NCBI RefSeq assembly: GCF_024721605.1
Contig: NZ_CP102630.1
Location: 992,001 to 1,056,000 of the forward strand
From: Sphingomicrobium flavum
GTDB taxonomy: Bacteria; Pseudomonadota; Alphaproteobacteria; Sphingomonadales; Sphingomonadaceae
DNA: 64,000 bases
Direction of reading: 5' to 3'
In this document: piece after piece, positions 59,658 through 62,945 of the stretch
Position numbering within the stretch: the first letter of the stretch is position 1
How the letters are laid out: the number at the start of each line of letters is the position of its first letter
Notes under the pieces: model-generated
What the model was told of the DNA's origin: nothing
Seen by the model: only the letters and a program-made list of their open reading frames with translations
Database searches by the model: none
Program-made: the position numbers and the translations under genes

Positions 59658-60107
59658 TTGCGCTGCCCCTTCTGCACCCATGAATCGAGCCAGGTGAAGG
59701 ATAGCCGCCCGTCCGAAGACGGCGCGGCCATTCGGCGTCGGCGCCAGTGCGAGGGATGCGGAGCGCGCTTTACCACTTTCGAGCGCGTCCAGCTGCGCGA
59801 CCTTGTTGTCGTCAAGAAGGATGGCAAGCGCGAGCCGTTCGAACAGGCCAAGCTGATGGCCGCCATCGGCCATAGCTGCCGCAAGCGCGACATCAGCGAG
59901 GGGCAGATCGAACGATTGGTCAACTCGATCCAGCGCCAGCTCGAAACCAAGGGCGATGAGGTCAAGGCGCAGGCGATAGGCGAAGCCGTGATGGACGGCC
60001 TCAAGGCTTTGGACAGCGTTGCCTATATCCGTTTCGCCAGCGTCTATCGCGATTTCAAGGAGGCCGGCGATTTCGCCGATATTGCCGGCACGGTGGACGA
60101 GGAATGA
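59658..60107 (+). CDS. nrdR: transcriptional repressor NrdR
   Basis: 149 residues from TTG. A zinc ribbon with C3, C6, C31 and C34 (CPFC...CEGC) and an ATP-cone (about 49-139: [17 protein letters not shown]). Represses ribonucleotide reductase genes in response to nucleotide state. It overlaps trmJ (ATGA). I did not see an NrdR box in this window. Confidence 0.96.
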
Positions 60108-60811
60108 AACCCGTCATCGTGCTGGTCGAACCCCAGCTCGGCCAGAATATCGGCAAGGCAGCGCGCGCCATGCTCAATTTCGGGCTGACCGAAATGCGCA
60201 TCGTCAATCCGCGCGACGGCTGGCCCAATCCCGAGGCGGGTCCCGCCGCCAGCAAGGCCGACATCGTGCTCGACCAGGCGCAGATTTTCGACACCACCGC
60301 CGAGGCCATTGCCGATTGTAGCCTCATCTACGCCTCCACCGTACGCCGCCGCGATGTGATGACGCCCGTCGTCGGCCCCGAGGAAATGGCCGCCGAAATC
60401 CATGCCAGCCAGGGCCGCACCGGCATCCTCTTCGGCCGCGAACGCTCGGGGCTTTCCACTGAGGACGTGGCGCTCTCGACCAGGATCGTGACCGTGCCGA
60501 TCAATCCTGAATTTGGCAGCCTCAACCTCGCGCAGGCGGTGATCCTGCTCGCCTATGAATGGTCGCGCAGCGCCGGGCTCGAACAGCCCACAGCGCGCGA
60601 GATCGAGGATCCGGCCCCGATGGGCGAACTCGACAGCCTGATCGGCCATCTCGATCGCCTGCTCGACGACAAGGGCTATTTCTTCCCGCCCGAACGCAGC
60701 GAAGCCACCCGCCAGACCATCCGCACCATCATGACCAAACCCGGTTGGTCGAGCCGCGAGATCAACGCGCTTCACGGCATGATTAAGGCCCTGGCCGCGC
60801 CAAAGCGCTGA
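60104..60811 (+). CDS. trmJ: tRNA 2'-O-methyltransferase (TrmJ-type SPOUT)
   Basis: 235 residues. SPOUT fold: [43 protein letters not shown] and [16 protein letters not shown]. TrmJ methylates nucleotide 32 of tRNAs. It has a C-terminal helical extension. Last gene of the rpiB-glyA-nrdR run. Confidence 0.93.
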
Positions 60812-60847: not shown

Positions 60848-60876
60848 TTGAAAATTGAATGGCAAAGGTATATTGT
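60848..60876 (+). promoter_or_regulatory. promoter of the first TGSR-cysteine gene
   Basis: TTGAAA (60848-60853), 17 nt, TATTGT (60871-60876). The same spacing and AT-rich context recur upstream of the paralogous gene at 61471. Confidence 0.6.
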
Positions 60877-60933
60877 CACAGTCGCGCGCCGTTGTTGCCG
60901 AGACGTTGCGCGTGCTTTGCCAGGGAGGCCGTC

Positions 60934-61341
60934 ATGCGTCGTATTTTACTGTCCTCATCCTTTTCTGTGCTTTTCGTCATGCCGGCCGCGCTGCTGGCCC
61001 AGCCCGTTCCGCCGGCCGGCGAACGGCAGGATCCCGCGCTCGCGGGCCAGGCCAGCGTGACCAGCCCGAGCGTCGAGCCCGAGACGCCCGAAGAGGCGCC
61101 CGTCGTGGTCGTTGGCGAACGCGAAGAAGTGGTGTGCCGGCGTGAGAAACCGACCGGCTCGCGCGTAGCCACCAAGGTTTGCCGCACCGAAAAGTCGCTG
61201 CGCGAAGAACAGCTGGCCACGCAAGAAGTGATGACCGAGCTTCAACTCGCCGGTGGTCCAGTGTTCGACTCGGCATCAGGCCTGGTCGGGGCCGACGTGG
61301 ACGGGAATCCGCAGACGGTGCCGTCAGCCAATCCCTTCTGA
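60934..61341 (+). CDS. small secreted protein with TGSR-cysteine motif, copy 1
   Basis: 135 residues with a signal peptide (1-23, ending LLAQ). A Pro/Glu-rich linker leads to a block VVCRREKPTGSRVATKVCRT with C68 and C83, then a helical EEQLATQEVMTELQLAGGP and a variable tail ending NPF. The Cys-x14-Cys pair may form a disulfide. The motif C...TGSR...C.T occurs in uncharacterised exported proteins of sphingomonads. Copy 2 lies 129 bp downstream. Confidence 0.8.
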   Translation: MRRILLSSSFSVLFVMPAALLAQPVPPAGERQDPALAGQASVTSPSVEPETPEEAPVVVVGEREEVVCRREKPTGSRVATKVCRTEKSLREEQLATQEVMTELQLAGGPVFDSASGLVGADVDGNPQTVPSANPF

Positions 61342-61385
61342 TCGCTGCTGCGCCCCGCCGGTTCAAAGGCGGACGACGGGCCGAT

Positions 61386-61414
61386 TTGTCAATTGGGACG
61401 CCATTCTATATCAT
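61386..61414 (+). promoter_or_regulatory. promoter of the second TGSR-cysteine gene
   Basis: TTGTCA (61386-61391), 17 nt, TATCAT (61409-61414). It closely parallels the promoter of copy 1, so both copies are likely transcribed separately. Confidence 0.6.
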
Positions 61415-61470
61415 TCGCACTGCAGCGCATGGCGGATGAACGCGATGGGCGAGCGAAACTGGAGGCCTTA

Positions 61471-61848
61471 ATGCGGCGACTGATCCTTCCTGCGACATTG
61501 CTTATGATGGGTGTCCCTGCGGCCGTCATGGCGCAGCCTGTTCCCGATGCCATCCCGCCGGAAGCGACGACCGATCCCCAGCCCGAGGCTCCCGCGGTGA
61601 CCGAACCCGTGGCGCCCGAAGAGGCGCCCGTGATCGTCACCGGCGAACGCGAAAAGGTCGTGTGCCGCCGCGAAAAGCCGACCGGCTCGCGGGTGGCGAC
61701 CAAGATTTGCCGCACCGAACAGTCACTGCGCGAAGAACAATTGGCCACGCAGGAAGTGATGACCGAATTGCAGCTGGCTGGCGGGCCTCCGGTCGAAAAT
61801 CATGACGCCTCGTCAGGCATCATCGGCCCCAAAGCCAACCCCTTCTGA
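61471..61848 (+). CDS. small secreted protein with TGSR-cysteine motif, copy 2
   Basis: 125 residues; signal peptide (1-22), Pro/Glu linker, C65 and C80 in the same block (46 of 49 residues identical to copy 1 from GERE to LAGGP), and the same terminal NPF. The linker and tail diverge. A GGAGG ribosome-binding site is 5 nt before the ATG. Function unknown; a tandem duplication with strong conservation of the cysteine block. Confidence 0.8.
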   Translation: MRRLILPATLLMMGVPAAVMAQPVPDAIPPEATTDPQPEAPAVTEPVAPEEAPVIVTGEREKVVCRREKPTGSRVATKICRTEQSLREEQLATQEVMTELQLAGGPPVENHDASSGIIGPKANPF

Positions 61849-61854
61849 GTTTGC

Positions 61855-62166
61855 CTAGCCCGCGCGGCTGCGGTCGAATTCGCCCAATTCATGCGCGATC
61901 GAGGTTTCGATCAGATCCTCATAGATGCGCTCGCATAGAGCCGGATCGACGCCAAGCCGGCGCGCTTCTGCATCCACTTTTGCCTTCACATCGGCCTTGC
62001 GCCATTCATCGCGCACCGCCCCGCGATCGGGCTTGATCCGCGCCGCCGCATCCATATAGCCGAACCGGCGCTGGAGCAGCGCGACGATCTGCCGGTCGAC
62101 ATCGTCGACCCCGGCGCGCACCTGGGTCATGTCCTCACAGCTTTCGGGGTCGAGAATGTCGGTCAT
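61855..62166 (-). CDS. chorismate mutase, AroQ type
   Basis: 103 residues, all helical. Pattern VDRQIVALLQRRFGYMDAAA plus a conserved Arg/Lys set (RIK, RKADVKAKV, LIETSIAHE). Converts chorismate to prephenate, or acts as the salicylate-type PchB lyase; gene context does not decide. Start MTDILDPES; a GTG two codons earlier is also possible. It ends 7 bp from the opposing cysteine-protein gene. Confidence 0.88.
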   Translation of the reverse strand: MTDILDPESCEDMTQVRAGVDDVDRQIVALLQRRFGYMDAAARIKPDRGAVRDEWRKADVKAKVDAEARRLGVDPALCERIYEDLIETSIAHELGEFDRSRAG

Positions 62167-62205
62167 GGCCACCCCCATGCCAAAGCCTTTTGTGCACCGC
62201 AACGC

Positions 62206-62330: not shown

Positions 62331-62945
62331 ATGTCTAAGCGTTCCAGCGCCAAGTATAAACTCGACCGCCGCATGGGCGAAAACGTCTTCGGACGTCCCA
62401 AGAGCCCGGTCAATCGTCGCGAATATGGTCCCGGCCAGCACGGCCAGCGCCGCAAGGGCAAGATGTCCGACTTCGGTCTGCAGCTGCGCGCCAAGCAGAA
62501 GCTGAAGGGCTATTATGGCGACGTGACCGAAAAGCAGTTCAAGCGCACCTTCGTTGAAGCCTCGCGCATGAAGGGCGATGCCGGTCAGAACCTTATCGGC
62601 CTGCTCGAGCGCCGCCTCGACATGATCGTCTACCGCGCCAAGTTCGCGCCGACCATCTGGGCCGCGCGCCAGCTGGTCAGCCACGGCCACATCATGGTCA
62701 ATGGCGTGAAGTGCAACATCGCCTCGCGTCGCTGCGACCTGAACGACGTCATTTCGCTCGGCAACAAGGCCAAGGAAATGGCGCTGGTCATGGAAGCACA
62801 GAGCCTGGCCGAGCGTGACATCCCCGATTATGTCGTGCCCGATGGCACCGACAAGGTGACCTTCACCCGCGTACCGTCGCTCGATGAAGTGCCCTATCCG
62901 GTCCGCATGGAACCCAATCTGGTCGTCGAATTCTACTCGCGCTAA
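62331..62945 (+). CDS. rpsD: 30S ribosomal protein S4
   Basis: 204 residues, full-length S4: [38 protein letters not shown] and an S4 RNA-binding domain with [20 protein letters not shown], ending EFYSR. It nucleates the small subunit body. It stands alone here, outside the S10/spc/alpha clusters. Confidence 0.99.

Follow-up and report, generated by a model that had tools for sequence, protein, structure and literature searches.

A tandem pair of small, exported-looking proteins in Sphingomicrobium flavum carries a conserved cysteine block with a possible link to the TonB system

Introduction

The described systems closest to the gene pair presented here are TonB-dependent receptors, TonB_C proteins (PF03544), group B colicins, and one phage protein family. 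A passage of the review PMC11658791 places TonB boxes in receptors and in TonB-dependent colicins. In Sphingobium, the part of PMC6874591 that deals with these boxes describes them as three hydrophobic residues followed by T, with V42 and T43 of DdvT being needed for uptake. A sphingomonad transporter review (PMC7142613) has among its references a paper titled on TonB inhibition by free box peptide, and PMC6434023 is a paper on TonB-dependent secretion of PopC. Alphaproteobacteria such as sphingomonads have many receptors served by few TonB proteins; in 21 genomes of the genus studied here, between 13 and 30 Plug matches per genome were found (E up to 1e-5). A small exported family, if tied to TonB, would offer a handle on the allotment of this shared motor, and even without a TonB link, a putative disulfide mini-domain that is undescribed, keeps to conserved chromosomal sites, and has repeatedly expanded in tandem merits a family model.

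The analysis covered a window of 64,000 nucleotides (positions 992001-1056000 of the 2.34-Mb complete genome of S. flavum), in which the interval 60848-61848 begins with the promoter-like site of gene 1 and ends with the stop codon of gene 2. The two proteins resemble TonB-dependent receptors in having an apparent signal peptide, an acidic/Pro linker, and a box-like hydrophobic segment, a layout seen, with TG/AxR after the segment, in 14 of this genome's 16 receptors; however, they have neither Plug nor barrel (no Pfam match), are 125-135 aa long, and carry a predicted disulfide hairpin-helix. In the genus, part of the block family consists of exported TonB_C proteins that carry the block at their C-terminus, whereas the window pair has no TonB_C match in Pfam. 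Group B colicins have a TonB box in the disordered region of a secreted protein, as stated in a passage of PMC11658791, which the box-like segment of the pair would parallel, but the pair has no receptor-binding or killing domain and no adjoining immunity gene. The phage family is phrog_22439, without assigned function, whose last 40 positions match the block: it was matched by 8 of 10 members of alignment A1 at E up to 1, and by 10 of 87 members of alignment A6 at E up to 0.01. The phrog_22439 profile, however, is 156 positions long, and gene 2 itself matches only at E 0.023, with none at 0.01.

Results and Discussion

Organization of the Gene Pair

Both proteins (Table 1) share one layout, in which a signal-like start ending in (A)QPVP leads into a Pro/Glu-rich linker; next come the near-identical stretch and a tail that varies between the two. 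A Sec signal peptide, judged by eye from sequence only, is clear in both, and by eye a GGAGG box also lies directly 5' of the ATG in each gene. A preliminary description of this DNA had reported 46 of 49 shared residues, diverging linkers and tails, NPF ends, and promoters with 17-nt spacers, and these features were recovered: the best 49-residue window (GEREEVVC...GGP) contains 46 identities, alignment outside the block is poor, both proteins terminate in ANPF, and two promoter-like sites with 17-nt spacers, which are consensus matches only, were found against 0.4 +/- 0.6 in shuffles. Each site lies about 57 nt upstream of the start codon, and the DNA upstream of gene 1 and that of gene 2 are weakly alignable. 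The motif spacing given earlier, with six residues before the second Cys, has to be corrected, as the actual block reads C-x5-TGSR-x5-C. A sorting role of the C-terminal NPF was considered and dropped because a homologue from another genus ends in SRPR.

Table 1. Features of the gene pair and of its flanking markers (positions within the window).
Feature	Position	Strand	Basis
trmJ-like SpoU methylase, upstream marker	60104..60811	+	Pfam SpoU_methylase, 2.6e-22
Gene 1 promoter-like site, TTGAAA / 17 nt / TATTGT	60848..60876	+	consensus match only
Gene 1, small exported-looking protein, 135 aa, C-terminus SANPF	60934..61341	+	ORF and translation
Gene 1 signal peptide MRRILL...ALLA, cleavage before QPVP	60934..60999	+	by eye
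Gene 1 TonB-box-like segment PVVVVGER, without Thr	61099..61122	+	comparison with receptors of the same genome
Gene 1 hairpin-helix unit (putative); Cys codons 61135-61137 and 61180-61182	61123..61248	+	homology to gene 2 model
Gene 2 promoter-like site, TTGTCA / 17 nt / TATCAT	61386..61414	+	consensus match only
Gene 2, small exported-looking protein, 125 aa, C-terminus KANPF	61471..61848	+	ORF and translation
Gene 2 signal peptide MRRLIL...AVMA, cleavage before QPVP	61471..61533	+	by eye
Gene 2 TonB-box-like segment PVIVTGER	61627..61650	+	motif and DNA-pattern scans
Gene 2 hairpin-helix unit (predicted), residues 61-102; Cys codons 61663-61665 and 61708-61710	61651..61776	+	AlphaFold2
Chorismate mutase, downstream marker	61855..62202	-	Pfam CM_2, 1.9e-18
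rpsD, downstream marker	62331..62945	+	named from sequence; homologue in syntenic locus

Predicted Fold of the Conserved Block

AlphaFold2, supplied with an 87-row alignment, placed two strands (residues 63-68 and 77-82) and a helix (83-102) in the gene 2 protein. In this model 37 residues, lying in the block, have a pLDDT above 90 and the blocks covering residues 61-100 have mean values of 91-95, while signal, linker, and tail are at about 50-60 and the overall pTM is 0.37. The signal, linker, and tail are thus predicted to be disordered, with a beta-hairpin and helix as the sole folded part. By strand register, TGSR forms the hairpin tip, and Cys65 and Cys80 would face each other across the hairpin because the strand limits pair residue 65 with residue 80; a disulfide between them, closing the hairpin in register, is predicted. 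The disulfide-stabilised unit proposed earlier therefore stands as regards a compact hairpin-helix with cysteines in cross-strand register, the disulfide itself being predicted. Fold searches with the full gene 2 model gave no convincing relative (Foldseek best E 2.1; VIA-align best Z 2.9 over 61 chains), where an absent match does not show a new fold, and no sequence relative was found among solved structures.

Age of the Tandem Duplication

Divergence between the two genes was estimated by the Nei-Gojobori method. In the 57-codon conserved stretch (PEEAP to GG), dS was 0.87 and dN 0.061, and in the 43-codon cysteine block 1.08 and 0.032, respectively; the low-dN, silent-saturated stretch takes in the box-like segment. 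The same codon is used at 32 of the 52 identical residues of the 57-codon stretch, compared with an expectation of 31.0 for silent positions completely randomised according to the local codon usage, as taken from three genes (glyA, trmJ, and rpsD). The preliminary description had named block identity at silent sites as the observation that would speak against constraint; such identity is absent, so the constraint reading survives, and the strong conservation it had noted for the block as a distinct unit reflects purifying selection (dN 0.03-0.06 versus dS about 0.9-1.1). The likeness of the pair reflects strong purifying selection on an old tandem duplication, that is, removal of change and not recent copying, because the silent sites are saturated.

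Recent copying of the block under no special constraint, whether by tandem duplication or by the gene conversion also raised in the preliminary description, would account for a block protein identity of 0.93, the highest of 54 distinct tandem pairs that are not all independent (random cross-locus median 0.35), but it is hardly credible, being excluded by the saturated silent sites unless the three-gene codon usage estimates mislead, and several other arrays are likewise alike in protein yet far apart at silent sites (for instance L167, with identity 0.89 and dS 1.19).

Distribution of the Block Family

Sequence comparisons indicate that the block represents a widespread, undescribed family of exported mini-domains in Alphaproteobacteria. 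Relatives were detected in 8 of 240 genomes of the class and, within the genus, in 26 of 80 genomes by gene 2 alone (many weak) and in 31 of 61 by the block profile. The DNA pattern GSRLx3[KR][VI]CxTx2[EQ]W recovered at least 120 stretches in genome contigs; the matches listed include Sphingomonadaceae, Erythrobacteraceae-type names, Caulobacter/Caulobacteraceae, Hyphomonadaceae, Maricaulis, Glycocaulis, Niveispirillum, and Rhodospirillaceae. The block had been called a recognisable but uncharacterised domain of sphingomonads; it is indeed without a Pfam or NCBIfam model, but "sphingomonads" is too narrow, since Caulobacteraceae, Hyphomonadaceae, and Rhodospirillaceae carry it too. Pfam and NCBIfam gave no curated match for the pair and only single chance rows for the 87-row alignment, and PADLOC gave one chance row only. 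Scanning genomes with gene 2 as the sole query returned no relative, phage searches returned chance rows only, for one relative, and plasmid searches returned none for gene 2. In IMG/VR no relative was found with alignment A5, and one contig was found by pattern. No paper describing the block was found among the open-access papers searched, which is weak evidence of novelty as most subscription journals fall outside that scope.

The two block cysteines, 15 residues apart, are invariant in 47 of 47 members and in the 87 alignment rows. The family hallmark, a pair of Cys enclosing TG[ST]R, with Thr following the second Cys, is present in gene 2 as C65, T71-R74, C80, and T82. Lys/Arg residues abound in the hairpin throughout the family. 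The family profile matches the window pair at E 1.4e-17 and 1.3e-16, values that follow by construction from both proteins being profile members. A Trp six residues after the second Cys is present in 210 of 221 members; both window proteins have Leu at this position.

Two minor observations concern the family at large. Proteins at L080 (genome G023) and L112 (G317) apparently contain two successive block-like units each, the first degenerate. On a contig of a viral collection (L267:10858-11130, minus strand), a block gene lies between portal-like and capsid-like genes, an arrangement that by eye resembles a prophage or gene transfer agent.

Chromosomal Sites and Tandem Arrays

Members of the family recur at two chromosomal sites. 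Site A has the order glyA-nrdR-trmJ-[block genes]-rpsD and is filled by one to four family members in relatives; the window pair fits it as trmJ-[pair]-chorismate mutase-rpsD. Among 119 named loci with a member, 22 show the markers of site A (trmJ, nrdR, glyA, rpsD), 54 those of site B (TonB-dependent receptor, clpB, or TPR-fused enzyme, with the receptor itself in 35), and 43 neither, shares that are rough because the pattern used for scanning is biased towards the common Trp form and loci end at 8 kb. Two to four copies occur in 28 of the 119 runs, and in each of the 35 neighbouring pairs both genes share one strand; in 21 genomes of the genus, 11 neighbouring pairs within 1 kb were counted versus 0.08 expected at random. 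Recurrent tandem growth and the fixed trmJ-rpsD site, as they appear from these comparisons, are features beyond the preliminary description, as are the receptor-adjacent site B and, described below, the TonB-box-like segment and the fusions to TonB_C. Within the genus, 13 of 30 trmJ loci, the present one included and another 30 trmJ genomes left out, hold a member at site A, and the sequences are very different. At L238:3054 (plus strand; genome G034), a weak site-A protein (E 0.41; KCRREKITG...GRKVC) lies near gene 2's distance from trmJ and may be a decayed orthologue.

The same genome has a second tandem pair at site B (1820558-1821011, minus strand; L065:5360-6000), 4.7 kb from a TonB-dependent receptor. 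This pair is flanked by a methyltransferase-like gene on one side and a TPR protein on the other, an arrangement repeated in three genomes of the genus. Representatives of site B carry the Pfam names TonB-dependent receptor, TPR-sulfotransferase, TPR-2OG-Fe(II) oxygenase, TPR-Asp/Asn hydroxylase, and ClpB. The TPR-fused sulfotransferase, 2OG-Fe(II) oxygenase, and Asp/Asn hydroxylase at L122, L154, L221, and other site-B loci could modify exported proteins or the receptor.

The Trp-less Subfamily and Its TonB-Box-like Segment

The subfamily that includes the window pair is rare; it lacks the near-invariant Trp and has a TonB-box-like segment (APVIVTGER) preceding the block. The strict box was found in 5 of 221 family members, which are not independent, versus a shuffled mean of 0.005; all five are Trp-less, compared with 0 of 210 Trp-bearing members. 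Within the window, the box motif is confined to this pair, reading VIVTG in gene 2 and VVVVG in gene 1, a style like that of the receptors of the same genome. There, a same-style segment ([I][VI][IV][TRQ][GA]) follows the signal peptide and acidic linker in 14 of 16 Plug-domain receptors, with Thr in 12 of the 14 segments by manual count. The DNA pattern [IV][IV][IV]TGxR occurs in this genome at 12 places (backward control, 2), which were read as five receptor-type ORFs, window gene 2, three other exported-looking ORFs, and three sites judged non-genes. The three exported-looking ORFs (L085, L086, and L089) are non-receptor proteins with IVVTGxR, in one case at the extreme C-terminus, and because of them the box-like motif may mean something else or something wider.

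A clear homologue was found in one other of 397 family genomes, from a different genus; at 42% over 100 residues, it has a box-like segment as well as the block and the helix. Its locus reads rpiB-glyA-nrdR-trmJ-[Trp-type member]-[homologue]-chorismate mutase-rpsD, which suggests an old two-gene arrangement whose two genes, in the window lineage, are both box-type. The box Thr is not fixed, because the homologue reads LVVSGEKE, with Ser where gene 2 has Thr and gene 1 has Val.

Possible Roles of the Pair

The anatomy of the pair is established by sequence and prediction; its function is inferred. The most specific reading that the evidence supports is that the proteins are envelope adaptors or regulators tied to TonB and its receptors, to which we assign a probability of about one in three. 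As binding modules of the TonB system with no enzymatic activity, they would be located in the periplasm or at the outer membrane and would tether TonB at receptors, compete for it there, or tune it. Both copies would bind the same partner, which could be why the block has been kept alike in the two, with linker and tail free to drift. Such a link is suggested by the purifying selection spanning the box-like segment, the confident model of the block, the receptor-style box in the same genome, and the box-bearing homologue with the same helix at the same site in another genus. It is also consistent with TonB_C preceding the block in each of the three long relatives that were scanned (they come from genomes G017 and G037, and G011 has ORFs of a similar kind), and with 13 of 50 block clusters in 21 genomes of the genus lying within 10 kb of a receptor, among the receptors listed (random mean 2.73, maximum 10 in 2000 draws). 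The TonB_C fusions, the receptor-bearing site B, and the box-like segment are three strands each weak alone, because a single genus supplies the fusions, site B amounts to one synteny, and the box is rare with a varying Thr. Against the TonB reading, the fusions were seen only in three genomes of that genus, receptor-linked loci are not independent since the link is largely one syntenic site, the nearest receptor to the window pair, among those listed, is 640 kb away, the Thr of the box is replaced in gene 1 and in the other-genus homologue, and the box cannot explain the family at large because so few members carry its strict form.

A narrower version, which we consider rather unlikely, is that the proteins act as soluble, endogenous periplasmic decoys or adaptors, with a box set on a disulfide mini-domain, and so govern the TonB available to many receptors. 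As the family also holds exported TonB_C-block fusions, box and box-binder would then be built on the same domain. At L078:3472-4608, L079 (G011), and L017 (G037), the exported TonB_C-block proteins are themselves in tandem and have no obvious membrane anchor.

At least as likely as the TonB-linked role, though itself short of even odds, is that of an envelope binding module unrelated to TonB, whose hairpin-helix would bind lipopolysaccharide, peptidoglycan, or an outer-membrane protein, with the hydrophobic segment as a linker strand. Most members lack the box, 13 of 221 have three hydrophobics and T before the block (shuffled mean 2.55, maximum 7), the box Thr is unconserved, the Lys/Arg-rich hairpin would suit this role, and more than a third of the named loci have neither site's markers. 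On the other hand, TonB_C fusions exist, the second site is receptor-linked, and the co-occurrence of box and Trp loss as one subfamily would be left unaccounted for.

It is improbable that the pair encodes proteins secreted for competition, in the manner of group B colicins, or peptide precursors, with relatives modified by the site-B enzymes. Tandem, fast-changing arrays, TPR-fused modifying enzymes at the second site, and the boxes that colicins carry according to the same passage of PMC11658791 are in its favour; however, the interval from trmJ to chorismate mutase contains neither an immunity nor an export gene, no toxin domain was found by Pfam or fold search, the window site is without such modifying enzymes, and these enzymes look cytoplasmic, whereas the block proteins, judged by eye, have Sec-type signals. 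Still less probable is a block acting as a disulfide or redox sensor (a periplasmic thiol switch) and not as a static structural unit: its two invariant cysteines would allow for this, but no redox partner was found in the neighbourhood, their spacing is not of the CxxC type, and the modelled cross-strand register suits a structural bond.
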